In this document: one piece after another, positions 16,689 through 40,915 of the stretch
Layout: the number at the start of each line of letters is the position of its first letter
Position numbering within the stretch: the first letter of the stretch is position 1
Assembly (NCBI GenBank): GCA_000697665.1
Contig: KL197710.1
Location: 2,455,036 to 2,519,035, forward strand
Direction of reading: 5' to 3'
Source: Jaapia argillacea MUCL 33604
Taxonomy: Eukaryota > Basidiomycota > Agaricomycetes > Jaapiales > Jaapiaceae
DNA: 64,000 bases
The notes under the pieces: generated by a model
Told to the model about the DNA's origin: nothing
The model's database searches: none
The model's input: only the letters and a program-made list of their open reading frames with translations
Program-made: the position numbers and the translations under genes

Positions 16689-19600
16689 ATGCTCTCGAGG
16701 ATCCCAAGAAAGGTCGCGCCTACTGTAAATATTGGATCTTTATCCTACCTTTTGCGTCGCTTTGGTTCCTCTCGCTCAGCCCAGTCGCCACAAATTCAAG
16801 ACCCTGAGCACGTCTCGGGAACAAAAGTCAGAAAGACCCGGAAGAAATTCTCTGAGCTGCCCAAGACATTCATAAATTCTGATGGCACATCGTCTACCCC
16901 TCTTGGGGACTGGATCGGTGGCCTAGAGGAACTGGGAGGAAAGAGAAAGGGTACCACGGCCCCTGAGCTGATATGTGCGGTGCTTCGGTGACCCTCCTGC
17001 TCATATTATTGACGGGACCCTTTCTGCAACATCGACAGTTAAGGCTCACGAAGATAATGTGACCTCCGACAGTACTCTCGGGAGTGCCACATCGTCACGT
17101 TGCTCAACGGGTACTTCGAAAGATTCTGACAGAAACATCGTCAGCGAGGATGTCAAGACGTCCTTAGGTGAGGTTGCCAAAACACTTAGAAAGCCCCGGA
17201 AGCGCAAAACCGTGCCGAAATCTTCGGGCTTGACAGGTGAGCAAGAGGTTCCTTGAGTATGCGTATCTAATCACGTTTTCAGACGGAACCAGCCTGGAAG
17301 AGCCGACCTCAGAATTACCCAAACCCACGCGAAAGCGGAAATCGAGAAAAACCCCGCTTCCACAGTCAGGTGAGAATATTGACATTATCCCCCCTACCTG
17401 TGATCAACTTGGCAACAGAAACAGATGCTTTACCTCCACCTTCGACTCCCTTGGCAGTGGAAATTCTCGATAATCTAGCCAGATTTCCGCATTGTATCTT
17501 GCTTACGAGAGTGGGGCAATTCTACGAGGTAGCTGTTTCATTTGCATCCCTATTCTTCATAATTCTAAAAAAGATAAAGTCTTACTTTGAGCCAGCAGTG
17601 GACGTTGCGAGGCTATTGAATATCAAACTTACCTCAAGGAAATGGGCTGGTCGCAAAATTCCCATGTGTGGATTCCCCATCATGCACCTCGACAAACACC
17701 TGAAGACCCTCGTTCAGCAAAACCAGCGATTTGTGGCAATGTGCGAGGAATTCTTGGTTTCCCCTACTCTTGGTCCCAAAGGTGGTTTTACGCGACGTGT
17801 TGCCCGTGTTATTACCCCTGGGACTTTGATTGACGAGCTGTTCCTCAACCCTTACGAAAACAATTATTTATTGGCTGTCGGTTTGGGAGAACCTGACCTT
17901 CCCTCTTCGACGGCAACACAATCATGGGCTCCGGCTCCTCCGATGCCAGTGGGTTTGGCCTGGATAGACGTGTCAACTGGCGAGTTCTTTACAAACACGA
18001 CGTCGCACGAAGGCCTTCGAGACGAGCTTGCTCGAATCGGACCTCGCGAAGTTGTTCTTGACAACTCCTTGGACCCAAGCCACCCCCTGTATCAGGTCGT
18101 CGCCGAAGAAGGTCACCTTATTTCTCGTATCACTCCCTCAGCAGAGGAAACTGTCGCCTCTCCCGTCCCTGCCAATGACCTTGCGAGCGCCAACGACGTC
18201 ACCTCCGCGGAAACACTTCCCGTGTTGGCTGCTATCTCCTTCAGTCCACATGAAGCCAATGCTATCAACTTACTTACTAGCTTCTTACATGGGCATCTCT
18301 TGGACCATATGCCTCAGCTCTCTCCTCCGAACAGGGAAGCTATTGCGGAACGTATGCATATCGACGCTCATACCATCAAAGCTCTCGAGATCCGTGAAGG
18401 CATGAGGGAAGGTGGTACTACTGGTAGCCTGCTCAGCGTTATCAAAAGGACGGTTACCAGTAGCGGCACGCGCCTGCTAGCGAGGTGGCTCTGTAAGCTT
18501 GTTCTAGTTGTTAATTTTTGACCTCACTAGAATTTTTTGTTTTAGGCTCTCCGAGTACGTCTTTGGTTGAGATCAACACACGACAATCCCTGGTGGCATT
18601 CTTCCATAGTCGTCCAGGTTTACGAGAAGATTTAGCGGAGATCCTAACAAGTCTTGAAGATGCCACTCGCATAGTGCAGCGATTCCTCCTTGGTCGTGGT
18701 GACATTGCCGATCTGTCTACTATCCCCGCGACGATCTCATCCTGGTCATCCATCAAAAGTCGAATCCAACAAGAAAAAGCTATGGAATTGCAAGAACGGG
18801 GACGCATACAGCCAGATGAATGGGAGAGCATCGACGCCCTCATGGGAAGATTGACCTCCCTTGCTGATTTATCCCAAAGGATTGCAACGTCTCTGAAGAG
18901 CGACCACGGAATATCTCTATCGTCTCTGAGTGCTGGCGACTCGGCGGAAGGAGAGAATCCCAGTGAAGACGGCGTCACTCCTAAATATACCGATTTGGGG
19001 ATCGGTAATGGGATCAAATGGAACATTGATTCAGGGTCAGAATACCAAGACGCCTTTCTTTCCGCCTTCTGATATACAACACAGGTTTTCCGAACATCTC
19101 CAAAAGCTCCACAATAATCTCGATACCCTAGTACAACGCCGTGCACGTCTAGAGCGAGACTTACAGCGCGAATATGGTATTGTTCAGTTCTGCTGCGTTA
19201 TATGGCACTCACCGGATGGTTGTCAGATGCCCCGTCGTTAACTCTTCGTTCCTCTCCCGGTCAGGGAATGTTTGTCCATATCGCCCGTGCTAAGCGTGAC
19301 CTTGGAAAAATCAAGGATGCTCCGCAGTTCATCAGTATTTCAGCAAGCGGAACAACCAAGAGCTTCTTCCTCAAGGTTTGTCTACCTCCAACTGTATTCT
19401 CTCTCCCTTGACACGTCTGTCTACTAGGACTGGGCGAAGCTAGGGTCTCAAATACTGGATACCACGATGTCCATCGATGCTGCCCAAAGGGAAGCCTTTG
19501 AAACTCTACGTGGCGAGGTATATCGCACATCAGTCTTCACCTCGATCCCAATCTAACCTGTACTAGGTGAATGCGTCTTCCGGGCTGATACGCCGGAACG

Positions 19601-20653
19601 CCCGCATTGTCGACGAACTGGACGTCACTCTTGGTTTCGCTGCACTTGCGACTGAACTAAATTTTGTCAGGCCAACCGTAAGGGATGAGTGAGTAGATGA
19701 TCAGCTGCTCTGCCTTTCCTGTGATACTAATTTTATTAGTATGTCGTACCATGTTGTCAATGGTCGGCATCCTACAGTTGAACTTGGGTTGCTCTCGTCA
19801 GGTCGGATGTTCACACCAAATACCTTGTCCTTTGACTCTGAGTCGAGGCTCCACATCATCACTGGACCCAACATGGCGGGCAAGTCAACGTTACTGCGCC
19901 AGACTGCTCTTATAGCTATCCTTGCCCAAACGGGATCTTACGTGCCTGCCGATGCTGCGACGACAGGCATCGTGGACAGACTGTTTTCGCGAGTAGGGGC
20001 CAAAGACGATCTTTTCAGAGATAGGAGTACTTTCATGGTCGAGATGCTTGAAACTGCTGAAATCCTTCGTCGCGCTACCCCTCGCAGCCTGGTGAGTGTC
20101 GGGTAATGACAGGCTCGGTCAATCACTAATTACGAATTGATCAAAGGTCATCATGGATGAAGTGGGAAGAGGAACAACCATGAAAGATGGCTTGGCTATC
20201 GCCTTCGGCACAGTGCATCATCTACATTCAATCAATCGATGCAGAGGTCTTTTCGCAACTCACTTCCACGAACTTGCTGACCTCCTTGGTTATTCGGACG
20301 ACCACAAGGGAAAGGGAACTTTCAGTGGCGTCAGCTTTTTCTGCACCGATGTAGATGAGACAGCGGTTGGTCTTCCTGGTTCATCGTACGATCATTATTC
20401 ATACCACATCCGCCAGGATGGGTTATTCGCGTATTCTCACAGACTAAGACCTGGACTTAACAGGGATAGTCATGGTTTGAAGGTCGCCCAATTGGCAGGT
20501 ATGCCAGCGCCTGCAGTCGCAGTTGCCCAGGATGCTCTTCGTTGGCTCAAAACTCGAGACAATGGTCTGGACGACATCGCACTGCGAAAATTTGGACAGA
20601 CTCTGTCGTCAAGCACGTACGGAGCATCCAAGGATATTTCTGGTATATCTTAA
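16689..20653 (+). CDS. MSH1: mitochondrial DNA mismatch repair protein Msh1 (MutS family)
   Basis: Starts [13 protein letters not shown] at 16689; the Arg/Ser-rich N terminus without acidic residues fits a mitochondrial presequence. A basic linker ([22 protein letters not shown]) spans small exons. The MutS mismatch-binding domain follows: [23 protein letters not shown], with the FYE motif at a splice joint, then [13 protein letters not shown]. The connector has [13 protein letters not shown], and the core and clamp carry [15 protein letters not shown]. The ATPase has Walker [15 protein letters not shown], Walker [10 protein letters not shown] after an intron, and the signature [12 protein letters not shown]. 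About twelve introns; all joins keep frame. The order fits Msh1 and the presequence excludes Msh2, 3 and 6. It should guard mtDNA integrity. Confidence 0.93.
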
Positions 20654-24437: not shown

Positions 24438-27400
24438 TTATAACACCATACTTCCCACTAAACGCCGATCTCTGCTACTGGCCCCTACGCCCACGCCTGT
24501 AGTCCCCTTTGGTATCTCCCATCTTTGGGTGACTACATTCCAGATCGATAGACTGTAACGACTCAGGGTGAAGCTCACGATCCGCGATTCGCCTGGTACG
24601 AGAAAGACGCTGTCAAACCCTTTGAGGATATATGGAGGAGAGTTGGCGGCCAAAGGCGGGGAAAGGTACAGCTGAGGAGTCTGTTGCAAGGGAATTCAGT
24701 AATGCTAGCGCCACCAACGCCTACCATCCGTAGAGCTTACTTCGTGGCCTCCACTGGTACCGTTATTCCTCAGCGTAAAGTTGACAGAGATAACTTCCTC
24801 GTGTAAGCTGATAGGCTAGGCGTTAGGATAGCCGCAGATACTTCGAGAACAATGCCCTGACCAAGGATCCAATGATGAGCCCGGACCAGGAGTATAGGGG
24901 CAATCAACCAAAGGAAGGCCGGATATATTCAAGGCGGAGTAGTCGAATGTGGTATAGGACAATCCGAATCCAAACTCGAATCTTGGGAGGATACCTTCCT
25001 GTACGCGACCATGGAATCAGTGTGATCCGATGTCAGAAGCAATCAAGAATGGACACCAACTGCGTCAAAATGACGATAGTCAATGAAAAGGCCTTCGGAA
25101 TAGGGGATTTCGACCGTCGCCACCAACAGAGTATAGTCGACCTGCGCGGCATAGTCACTTATTTTCTTGCCGATGGTATAAGGAAGACGACCACTGGACT
25201 CGATAAATCATGTCAATATGTGCCTTGAAGGAGAGGAAATGAGCCACGAACCTTGGGTTATAATCGCCATACAGAACGTCAACGAGAGCATTCCCTAGTG
25301 TATGTCAGTCATACCATATGAAATAATAGAGTACATCTGGAACTTGCCAGCTTCTTGCCCAGGCAAACCACTCCAAACCTGGGGGGCGTCCGTCAGATAT
25401 AATACGGCCACCACTTGCTTGTTACATACCAAACCAGTAACTGAAAAGGACCCGAACTGTTCATTTTCATCCTCCAAAGAGTCGAAGTTAAAACATACCG
25501 TTCGGATTATTCACCCAACTTTCCACTATTACCGGGCCAACGGCATTGACTACGACGACAGTGTTGTTGTTGACACGTGCTACACTTTCCACAAGCGCAT
25601 CCTGATGATACAATCGACCAGTTCATGAGATCTCAAGTAGCTGGCGTGAGGGGTCGTCTCACTCCGTTGTGCCACGCCTGTAGGTCGTTTCGGTCACCCC
25701 AATTGCCTTCGACGTCGTACGATTGCTCGCCACTATCAGCAGTGATGAAGACGAACGCGATGCTGGCTCCTTTGGCAGCTTTGGCAGCGGCATTCAAGTC
25801 CGAGTCGCTGAGGGATGATGACACGGAACTTCCATCTACTTTAGCACGTGCTTGGATGGCGTCGAGAGGCTACAAGTCTCCAAGGTGAGATGAAAACATC
25901 AGGGTGCCCTTGACTTTGACTCACCGTGACCAAGTACGGATAATTGGCGGTGCTAAATATGTGTTGAGAACTAACCTAGGCATCGATGAGCGGTAAAGGA
26001 AACTGACCCACTTCCCCATCCCATCCCAAGAGTTCCCACATCGCAAGAGCGGTCGACGCATCTGGGTAGAGATGGAAATGCAAAAGCGACACTCTAAATC
26101 CAGACGGCTCACCCCTCAGGGAGGAGAGAACACTCACGCATTAGGACCAGAGGGGTTCGGACCCGCTCCGCTGCCTATACGAATGCGATGAGCGACGGTG
26201 CTTGGAGGAAGCGAAGGATGATCAAACCGATGACAGCAATAGACTGCGGTGCACTAAGCGGGAGTGTATGGTTGTGATTCTTGAGTAAAACTGTCGAGGC
26301 GGCACCAATGGTCCTAATCAGGCTAGAGAATTGAATCGCAAGTCGGGGAACTATCAGTGAAAGGTTGGAGGAAGGAAATATTGAGTACCTAGCGTGATCC
26401 CCCTGCACATCAGGACCGGTAGGACCAAGAGATACTTCAGGGTAGTTTAAGTCTTGTCCCAGCAGGTACCTAAATTGTACGAATGTAAGTATATGTGATA
26501 CTGACGGACGGTTCGTTAGTTACCACCCAGCGAGGATAAGCGTTGCCATGTCCTATGGCCTATATGAGACATGTTATGACGAAGAGAGGGGAGAATGACG
26601 AACGTCAACAACAGACTCCGGAATGTCGCCCGAAGTAACTGCATGGACGAGACTCGCACCGAAATAACTGCGTGACATGGCGTTTGATAAGAAACTCGGA
26701 AAAAAAATACAGCAGCTCACCTCACAATAGATCCAGGAAAGACATCTCCGGGCATTGTCATCTAGCACAAATGAAGCGAGATCAGGTGGGAGGTTGGGGT
26801 AAGATAATCGACCTACATCTAACCCAGCACTAGCTGAACCAGTGGAATGTGTAGCAACCCAATCTGGCCACAGGGATCAGGTCTTACAGGTAAGCGCATA
26901 TGAAATATTTGACGCGAATACCTGACATTACATCTGGGAGCAACCCAGTCAGCACATCGAACGTGTAGGGCGAATGCTTAGGTACGTGCATCCGCGGAAT
27001 CCCATCTCATCCTTCAAGTAACCACGGAGAGTACCGTTGTTCTCACAGGCATAGGTACCATTGACTACGAAAGTGTCAGCGAGGGAACGGTAACTCAAAT
27101 ATCTAAGCCACTGACCTTCGTCTAGAAAATTTGTCGAGTTGATGAAATGAAAGTGAAGTACACCGAGGATTGTGGGACTGACTATAGCTGCACATGACGG
27201 CGGCGACATTGGCTTGAACACTTCGAAGAAACTGAGTCCAATTAAAGCCTGGGGCATCACCGTGAGAGGCACTTCAGGCACTCACTGGATGAAGATAAAT
27301 CTCATGTTGCTAGGGGGAATAAATGATAAATGTTCAATGTCAATCTAGGTTTGGAAAGAAAAACAACACACTGTGCTATGTTAAACAATAAGAGGTAAGC

Positions 27401-28629
27401 TTTGCTAGTTGAATCAAATTCTAGCTTACCGGTCATCAACATTGGAAGAGCTCCACATTCGCGAATGTTCTTGCTCGCTGAAGAATGAATAAAGTCATCG
27501 AAGGGCAATGAACATCAGATGATTGATACTAACTTATTCAAAAAATGCTTTGCGACGGCCTGGACACCTTGAGACTGGATGCCGAGGATTGTCTCATAAG
27601 CAGACTCCCCCGACAAATACGGATCCCCGCCGAACCTACAAGACAAGCGCTGAGGCTGCGCAAGCTCGCCAGATCAACGACAAAACTCACCCTTCCCAGG
27701 CACGGCCAGCGGCAGGAGCTCGCATCATATTCCTGGTGCAAGGTTGGCAAAGTGTGGCAGTCTGTGATCGGTTGGTGAAGAGCAAAACGTTAAAACACAC
27801 ATGTCGGGTCCCAATTGAACATGGACACCCTTTCCCCGGAATTCCTGGCCCATAGCCACCCCGCGTTGACGCATTAGAGTCCTATTGAAGCTATTGACGA
27901 TAGTTCAGATTCACAGTCTCCCCATCCTCATGATACATACGTTGCTGCTACATTGATACCCCTACTTGGATGGTGAACTGTTGATCGTCGAAAATCTAGA
28001 GCAGAACTCACGCAGGAAAGGCAGAGTTTCCTTGAGTGTTTCTGACTCCCAAGGCGCTATCTATCGCGAAAAAAGTCAGCCAGAACCAGAAACATTCAAT
28101 TTCCATCCTTTTACCTTGTAGACAAAGACCTGGAAAGTGGATCGAGCTGATCGCCACGGTGTTGCCTATGCAAGGAGCTAAAATGTGCGATAATGATGGG
28201 CTATAAGAACAGTGAACAAGATAACCCACTGGAGAAATATCCGAGGCCTTCGAAGACATGAAAGAATGATAATCAGATAGTCAAGTGTAGTCAAATTTGG
28301 AGGCGCTCACCCGTAGCAAGTTGCACTTTCTCCTCCAACGTGAGCTTTGCCAGAGCAGCCTCAGCCTGAACGCAACATATCGGTGGGATACGCCCACGCA
28401 TTTTCCAAGAAAAATACGCACCTTGGTATACGCTTGATCCCATTCCGGCGAGAGCACTGTTGGAGAAGGCTCAGCACAAAGACCGCTTTGGAATGAAAAT
28501 TCGCTCTTGGTGGAAGATCAGCGTCGCGCAGATGACAACACAAGTGAAGTATGTACCACATTGATTCGCCACAAAAGGGCAGAACATGAGCAGTATCGTG
28601 AAGAAAAGATATAAGAGATAGACACTCAT
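24438..28629 (-). CDS. secreted GH3 beta-glucosidase with about 35 exons
   Basis: A signal peptide (MSVYLLYLFFTILLMFCPFV) is encoded at 28629. Classical GH3 blocks follow: WDQAYTKAEAALAKLTLEEK, PCIGNTVAISSIHFPGLCLQ, GVHVQLGPDMN, APAAGRAWEGFGGDPYLSG, QAVAKHFLNNEQEHSRMWSS, SNVDDRTQHEIYLHPF, NVAAVMCSYNEVNGTYAC, MGFRGYVMSDWVATHST, SAGLDMTMPGD, LLKNHNHTLPL, GMGWGSG, LVWSGLPGQEAGNALVDVLYGD and FGFGLSYTTFDY, then a fibronectin-like tail (VFLVPGESRIVSFTLSR). The nucleophile Asp lies in VMSDW, its codon split by an intron. By eye I count about 34 introns, including exons of 4, 6, 11 and 12 bases and two GC-AG introns. The role is extracellular hydrolysis of cellobiose and beta-glucans, releasing glucose. 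Confidence 0.93.
25295..25347 (-). other. GC-AG intron in the beta-glucosidase gene
   Basis: The donor is GCAAGT and the acceptor TAG. The join gives QEAG-NALVDVLYG, a conserved GH3 stretch. Using the GT two codons on would break the frame. Confidence 0.8.
25430..25440 (-). other. 11-base micro-exon of the beta-glucosidase gene
   Basis: The sequence TTACTGGTTTG encodes the junction VTGL between NNPN and VWSGLPGQE. Flanking introns are 58 and 51 bases with GT..AG ends. Confidence 0.85.
26922..26933 (-). other. 12-base micro-exon next to the catalytic Asp of the beta-glucosidase
   Basis: The sequence ATGTAATGTCAG encodes most of YVMS and the first base of the nucleophile Asp codon. The upstream intron (26934-26989) appears to use a GC donor (GCACGT); no GT nearby keeps frame. 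Confidence 0.8.
27116..27121 (-). other. 6-base micro-exon of the beta-glucosidase gene
   Basis: ACGAAG lies between introns 27122-27182 and 27065-27115. It completes Tyr-Asn-Glu-Val in CSYNEVNGTYAC, a conserved GH3 motif. Confidence 0.85.
27372..27375 (-). other. 4-base micro-exon of the beta-glucosidase gene
   Basis: CACA lies between introns 27376-27429 (54 bases) and 27310-27371 (62 bases). It supplies the last base of Arg and the whole Thr codon of SNVDDRTQHEIYLHP. Skipping it destroys the frame. Confidence 0.8.
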
Positions 28630-39397: not shown

Positions 39398-40915
39398 ATG
39401 AATCCAATGGGAATGTCAATGGCTGAGGCCCCTGTGAGTGTCAGTTATTCCCAATTTTTTGTTGGCGGATGATTTAATAATTTACTCTCTCATGATCTCC
39501 CCATTCTATCACTTGGACATGGCAGAGGAGAGCTCATCTCTACGTCGGCAACCTCAGCCCCCGAGTGACTGAGTATATGCTCACCGAAATCTTCGCGGTG
39601 GCCGGCCCCGTCCAACACGTTAAAATCATTCCGGATCGTAATTATCAGCACGGTGGTCTCAATTACGGCTTCGTCGAATATATGGATATGCGTGCAGCTG
39701 AGACTGCCCTTCAGACTCTTAACGGTCGTAAGATCTTCGACACCGAGATCCGAGTCAATTGGGCATATCAAGGCAACCAAAACAAGGAGGACACCTCCAA
39801 TCATTATCACGTCTTCGTCGGCGACCTCTCCCCCGAAGTTAATGATGAGGTACTTGGCAAGGCTTTCGCCGCCTTCGGTACCCTCTCCGACGCTCGTGTC
39901 ATGTGGGACATGAACTCGGGCAAGTCGCGTGGTTATGGTTTCCTCGCCTTCCGCGACAAGACCGACGCTGAGCAGGCCATCGCCACGATGAACGGTGAAT
40001 GGCTCGGGTCTCGTGCCATCAGGGTCAACTGGGCAAACCAGAAGACTCAAGGTGCTCCCGCTCCATCATCTGCCGCTCCCGCTCGCCCGACCGGAATGGG
40101 AACTGCACCTGCTCCGATCAACTTCCAAGGAGGCCCCATCAACTACGAAACCGTGGTAACGCAGACCCCTCAGTATAACTCCACCGTCTATGTCGGCAAT
40201 CTCGTCCCCTACACCACCCAAGCCGACCTCATCCCCTTGTTCCAGTCCATTGGCTACCTCCAGGAAATCCGGATGCAAGCCGATCGCGGTTTCGCTTTCG
40301 TGAAACTCGACACCCACGAGCACGCGGCGGCTGCGATCGTGCAGTTACAGGGACAGATGGTACATGGTCGCCCCATTAAATGCAGTTGGGGCAAGGATAG
40401 AGCCGACGGTGGAACTGCTGCGCCCATCAGCCCTGTTGCAAACGCTAGTCCCCCTTACGGAACCATGGTTCGTCGTCTGCTTTCCCCCTTTTTTTGCAAT
40501 CGGCCCATTAATCCCGACTGTACAGCCCATGTATGGAATGCCTCAAGCTAACACGTATGGACAATATAGCTATGGTAGGTTACTTGTTTGCATGATCAGA
40601 CAGCAGCCGGAACTAAATACCCATCCCTAGGTATGCCTCAAGGTCAGCCCGGGGCCGCCGGTGCTGCGATGGGAATGGGAGGTGGTTCTCAACCCGGAGC
40701 GCCAGACGCATCTAGCGCCGCTGCCCAAGCAGCTCAAGCGCAATGGCCTGGAGGCGACATGAGCTCATACTATTCTAACTATTGGGGAGGTGGGATGCTT
40801 CGTCATCTAATATTCTACCACCCGTTTACTGAAGCCCATTACAGGATATTACGGACAGCAGGCTGCACCGGGTCAGCCAGGCGCCGGCGGACAACAGGCA
40901 CCAGGATCTGGGTGA
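39398..40915 (+). CDS. PUB1: three-RRM RNA-binding protein, Pub1/TIA-1 type
   Basis: Starts MNPMGMSMAEAP at 39398; an intron joins it to RRAHLYVGNLSPRVTE. RRM1 has RNP2 LYVGNL and RNP1 LNYGFVEY, RRM2 has HVFVGDL and SRGYGFLAF, and RRM3 has TVYVGNL and DRGFAFVKL ending IKCSWGKD. Three RRMs with NW-A tails (VNWAYQ, VNWANQ) match Pub1/TIA-1 proteins that bind U-rich mRNA, stabilise transcripts and enter stress granules. The C terminus is Gln/Gly/Met-rich and prion-like (NTYGQYSYG, YYSNYWGG, YYGQQAAPGQPG), spread over four small exons, ending at 40915. Five introns lie outside the RRM core, all of which sits in one exon. Confidence 0.9.

Follow-up and report, generated by a model that had tools for sequence, protein, structure and literature searches.

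A predicted four-nucleotide coding exon between two short introns of a GH3 beta-glucosidase gene in Jaapia argillacea

Several systems with very small exons have been described. Exon 2 of human MPC1 is a 4-bp microexon for which constitutive inclusion, long flanking introns, and exon definition by the proximal introns have been reported (PMC9929638). In Fusarium, CYP621A contains a single-nucleotide exon that is present in 20 orthologs and supported by reads (PMC12940212), and plants possess microexons of at most 15 nt, including 1-nt exons in APC11 and VPS55 (PMC8831610). The P450 genes of Phanerochaete chrysosporium have exons down to 6 bp together with frequent introns of 45-55 bp (PMC1184071), and the Xlr2 gene of Trichoderma virens has a 20-nt microexon with glucose-regulated inclusion (PMC11121469). 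In C. elegans, two PRP-40-independent microexons have been reported whose flanking introns are very short (as little as 49 nt), and intron definition has been proposed as the default for short introns (PMC8378409). Among the literature matches listed, we noticed no report on the gene analyzed here or on any 4-nt fungal exon.

The window, a stretch of 64,000 nt from contig KL197710.1 of Jaapia argillacea MUCL 33604 (genome of 43.7 Mb in 95 contigs), carries a GH3 beta-glucosidase gene at 24438..28629 on the minus strand. In our gene model, 35 exons separated by 34 introns code for 738 amino acids; the coding length is 2,217 nt, and all introns and codons fit without frameshift or internal stop. 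The introns have a median length of 55 nt, and all measure 50-76 nt except the first, which has 100 nt. Nine of the 35 exons are at most 30 nt long, and the longest has 243 nt. Neighboring open frames at 17271-20653 (+) and 39496-40551 (+), which by eye resemble a MutS-family mismatch-repair protein and an RRM RNA-binding protein, extend over more than 1 kb, compared with at most 243 nt for the GH3 exons. Two introns of the GH3 gene are of the GC-AG type, 26989-26934 and 25347-25295 (-), with the donors GCACGT and GCAAGT.

The 738-residue product matches the GH3 N-terminal domain (PF00933, 114.6 bits), the GH3 C-terminal domain (PF01915, 195.6 bits), and the Fn3-like domain (PF14310, 71.4 bits), all above the cut-offs, and thus has the domains of a GH3 beta-glucosidase. 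Residues 29-736 match a solved fungal GH3 enzyme (3zyz/4i8d, named beta-D-glucoside glucohydrolase), which in the case of 3zyz we take to be Cel3A of T. reesei. The product contains the motifs VMSDW and ADSGE, which line up with identical letters in the best PDB match apart from TDW in place of SDW; presumably, the Asp of SDW is the nucleophile and the Glu of the SGE region the acid/base. The codon of the MSDW Asp is broken by the intron at 26922/26863 (-), directly after a 12-nt exon. The protein departs from its relatives in three regions, at about 25700-25731, 24800-24870, and 27690-27710 (-): SGEQSYDVEGN (about 25700-25731) stands where relatives keep SGEGYITVEGN, a Cys precedes LH where the paralogs on contig C32 described below have Trp, and GRAWEGFG corresponds to GRNWEGFG in relatives.

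Exon 11 of the model (27430..27477, -, 48 nt) ends with ...GTTGATGACCG in phase 2 and is followed by intron 11 (27376..27429, -, 54 nt, GTAAGC...TAG), in which CTTAC, its A followed by 20 nt, is a candidate branch site. Exon 12 is the tetranucleotide CACA (27372..27375, -), flanked by ...CATAG before and GTGTGT after, and intron 12 (27310..27371, -, 62 nt, GTGTGT...TAG) has a weaker candidate, TTGAC, the A of which is followed by 30 nt. Exon 13 (27286..27309, -, 24 nt) continues with QHEIYLHP. The C of CACA closes the Arg199 codon (CG/C), and ACA is the Thr200 codon, giving the joined translation SNVDDRTQHEIYLHP; the coordinates, the intron lengths, and the supply of Thr and completion of Arg all agree with the original prediction. 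With 4 nt between two complete GT-AG introns, CACA lies well within the size limit of 30 nt for coding microexons. The predicted junction that includes it reads GATGACCGCACACAACATGAG. When it is skipped (junction GATGACCGCAACATGAG), the frame is lost, as had been proposed, with a stop at codon 242 and 19 exon junctions still downstream, and the segment has no Pfam match. Decay of an mRNA is expected when many exon junctions follow its stop codon. The same gene contains three further very small exons in our model: exon 15, ACGAAG (27116..27121, -, 6 nt), exon 17, ATGTAATGTCAG (26922..26933, -, 12 nt), which follows the GC-AG intron 26989-26934, and exon 29, TTACTGGTTTG (25430..25440, -, 11 nt).

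Once introns 11 and 12 are removed, the stretch has exactly the length and the motif that the family shows. The motif DDR/K-T-x-HE is present in all five PDB alignments displayed among 76 matched sequences, as DDRT in three (two of these being almost identical proteins) and as DDKT in two. Other GH3 genes exist in the same genome, and a search by DNA match for an allelic or duplicate copy of the window gene found only its own locus. On contig C32 (loci L029 and L030, about 9.4-24.8 kb), three GH3 genes lie clustered, one of them on the strand opposite to the other two, and these paralogs, C32a, C32b, and C32c, are 55-57% identical to the window protein (395/707, 399/705, and 390/708 aligned residues). 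All three have a single exon of 125 nt in the interval delimited by the introns shared at 27533 and 27182, and the corresponding exons of the window gene sum to the same length (48+4+24+49 = 125). The following two C32 exons measure 81 and 59 nt, and their counterparts in the window gene are 6+75 and 12+47 nt. Together, the length sum and the stop at codon 242 show that CACA is needed for the frame and the length of the protein.

The paralog models were obtained in two rounds. In the first, C32a had one frameshift and odd introns near the site, and C32c had extra tiny exons; in the second, with C32b as query and introns of up to 220 nt, both C32a and C32c gave the 125-nt exon without frameshift. 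Exons of 1-7 nt at the paralog ends and a 2-nt exon inside the C32c model were taken as alignment artefacts and not counted. The C32 models have 19-22 introns, end artefacts included, and thus fewer than the window gene. Ten intron positions are common to the window gene and all three C32 paralogs, and 24 of the 34 window introns are without exact counterpart in any of them; as only exact matches were counted as shared, a few of the 24 could be slipped paralog introns. The position of the GC-AG intron 26989-26934 is common to all four genes. Introns 11 and 12 both fall within the unbroken 125-nt stretch. When residues 151-280 were compared by tblastn with 12 of 30 loci, five loci gave no match; beyond C32, the site is uninterrupted in C7:36 kb, C7:1470 kb, and, by weak alignment, C8, and in C7:1479 kb the alignment is interrupted and unreadable at the site. 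The CACA site is thus unbroken in six of the seven distinct paralogs reached, and by parsimony among these paralogs, introns 11 and 12 would be gains in the line of the window gene.

For spliced alignment, we used a protein-to-DNA aligner that allowed GT/GC-AG introns of 44-130 nt, with splice matrices built from the other 32 introns of the model. With 3zyz and C32b as queries, introns 11 and 12 were returned exactly and without frameshift. These alignments recovered 33 of the 34 model introns, all except the first, which precedes the aligned region; at the 3' end, they placed one extra intron that the gene model does not contain. As the matrices derive from our own model of the same gene, we carried out a control with flat scores (GT or penalized GC, AG only). 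The CACA exon was returned in all nine flat-score runs (queries 3zyz, C32b, and C32a, each with three intron penalties), eight of which were free of frameshifts and contained 32 model introns; in the ninth, with 3zyz and the strictest penalty, only 28 model introns were recovered and the frame shifted once at another place in the gene. Barring the CACA exon cost 30 to 62 half-bit units overall: when its acceptor or donor was forbidden, the aligner fell back to a 1-nt exon and lost about 30 units, and when the acceptors of both exons were forbidden, one query produced a frameshift and the other a stop, with a loss of about 58-62.

Introns 11 and 12 are GT-AG introns of ordinary length for the gene; their donors are good, and their acceptors range from fair to good. 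The donors score 7.02 and 6.21 bits, respectively, equalled by two and three of 270 unused GTs. The acceptor of intron 12 (7.93 bits) is the best of all 34 and is not equalled by any of 201 unused AGs, and that of intron 11 is middling (4.47 bits, with 29 of the 201 AGs as good). Intron 11 has a CTNAY branch motif, which intron 12 lacks; five of the 34 introns lack a YTNAY with at most 44 nt after the A, and branch-site motifs are weak evidence here. A single intron of 120 nt in place of the pair would be an outlier, given the narrow length range of all introns but the first. To estimate how often such an arrangement occurs by chance, we dinucleotide-shuffled the 120-nt interval 20,000 times, keeping its first six and last three bases fixed. 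Any frame-restoring exon of at most 12 nt was found in 4,177 shuffles, in 88 of them with an acceptor-plus-donor score at least as high as the real one; a 4-nt Arg-Thr exon was found in 101, and in only four with splice scores also at least equal to the real ones. A search for introner-like similarity among the 34 introns of the GH3 gene gave a best pair score of 22, inside the range of 19-25 of the maxima from 20 shuffled sets; introns 11 and 12 score 11 mutually, so that these introns show no sign of being copies of one element.

An in-frame path that avoids CACA had been named in the original prediction as evidence against the exon. We enumerated all paths with at most two GT/GC-AG introns of at least 35 nt that lead from exon 11 to HEIYLHP or IYLHP and found 52 that are in frame and free of stops, so that alternatives do exist; however, 48 of them start at the donors 27462, 27456, 27451, or 27440, which score only 0.03, -2.08, -1.93, and 0.95 bits and would remove part of the conserved exon. 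NVDDR is kept in just four paths, namely those with the 4-nt exon and a 1-nt exon, and each of these with a later acceptor, by which QHE is lost. The 1-nt exon would be a T at 27370 (-) between introns 27429-27371 (..CACAG) and 27369-27310 (GTGTTG..), with the junction GATGACCGTCAACATGAG and the product VDDRQHE, which lacks Thr200. It is in frame, it is what the aligner chooses once CACA is barred, its acceptor is about equal to that of intron 11 (4.39 vs. 4.47 bits), and its Pfam score is nearly the same (62.4 vs. 63.6 bits for the CACA form). However, its donor GTGTTG scores -2.35 bits compared with 6.21 for GTGTGT, and besides its alignment cost, it shortens a stretch of fixed length by a Thr that is kept in 3/3 C32 paralogs and 5/5 displayed PDB alignments, so we consider it very unlikely. 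Even less probable is a single long intron that starts at the weak donor GTTGAT (27440) and ends at 27310 (junction TCTTCCAATCAACATGAG, product SSNQHEIY). This path would need only one GT-AG intron to stay in frame, but at 131 nt this intron would be longer than all 34 introns of the gene, its donor is below all 34 donors of the gene (the weakest being 1.25 bits), and with VDDRT lost, the segment has a Pfam score of 57.5 bits instead of 63.6. The Pfam scores by themselves do not settle the choice between the CACA, 1-nt, and 27440 forms.

CACA could also be a chance patch in a pseudogene or across an assembly indel. The two GC-AG introns and the altered residues at positions conserved in relatives would fit such a view, and the role of the enzyme could be covered by the other GH3 genes of the genome. 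This is nevertheless very hard to reconcile with a reading frame that stays open across all 34 introns and 738 codons, with the 4/20,000 chance of an equally good Arg-Thr exon, and with the three further exons of at most 12 nt that fit the model, two of them within conserved length totals. The least credible of the alternatives is a [D1,2] stwintron, in which an internal intron would split the donor of an external intron with no exon between them: removal of 27429-27371 indeed joins G to TGTGTTG and creates an external donor GTGTGT, but the product would be VDDPT followed by a stop and thus not in frame.

Taken together, recovery by spliced alignment without prompting, the length match with the paralogs, and the motif strongly support the prediction of a 4-nt coding exon. 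Judged from the sequence, CACA is with a probability of about 92% a real, constitutively needed exon of an intact GH3 beta-glucosidase gene. Each of the two short introns would be recognized singly across the intron, and both would be removed in succession, as U1 and U2AF/U2 could hardly flank 4 nt on both sides simultaneously; whichever intron were removed first would leave a normal site for the remaining one. The earlier wording that recognition must depend on intron definition is too strong, because the human 4-bp exon of MPC1 is reported to be recognized by exon definition. CACA may have arisen when two introns entered the ancestral 125-nt exon 4 nt apart, and these two insertions would be part of a dense intron gain in this gene, with its 24 positions absent from the three closest paralogs.

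To see what intron density alone would produce, we placed 34 introns randomly in 2,217 nt in 50,000 trials. In 88% of the trials, one or more internal exons measured no more than 4 nt (mean 1.98, observed 1), so the CACA exon is what intron density predicts. For exons of at most 12 nt, the mean was 5.6 and the observed number 4, and in comparison with random placement, this one gene therefore shows no sign that tiny exons are avoided. It is conceivable, and we would give the idea somewhat less than even odds, that this fungus has little or no lower limit of exon size, that introns enter near-randomly and with spacings down to 4 nt that the splicing of short introns tolerates, and that the 4-, 6-, 11-, and 12-nt exons are the unregulated tail of a dense gain. 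If this idea holds, many such exons would be missed in basidiomycete annotations. An automatic gene model that overlooked CACA would be frameshifted. How a spliceosome copes with 4 nt flanked by two short introns could be studied cleanly at this locus, for which three paralogs that have the same stretch unbroken provide an in-genome control.

Compared with the known systems, CACA resembles MPC1 exon 2 in having 4 nt and hence a length that is not a multiple of three, but it is flanked by introns of 54-62 nt and not by long introns with exon definition. It shares with Xlr2 that both are fungal microexons with lengths that are not multiples of three; the Xlr2 exon, however, has 20 nt and is regulated by glucose, and nothing points to a regulation of CACA. 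The P450 genes of P. chrysosporium are likewise genes of a white-rot basidiomycete with short introns and tiny exons, but they belong to a different family, and their smallest reported exon has 6 bp. Like the plant microexons, CACA is a very small coding exon of the kind overlooked by annotation; those are conserved across land plants and supported by RNA, whereas CACA is known from one genome. Similar in the line of argument is CYP621A of Fusarium, also a fungal case, in which the frame, a motif of the family, and an apparent intron of excessive length led to the tiny exon, and an intronless relative served as the length marker just as an unbroken relative does for CACA; it differs in its 1-nt size, its 20 orthologs, and its reads, compared with 4 nt in a single genome known from sequence. 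To call CACA close to the smallest exons known is therefore fair, yet 1-nt exons from plants and Fusarium had already been published. Such tiny exons are rare but already known, and CACA adds one more case.
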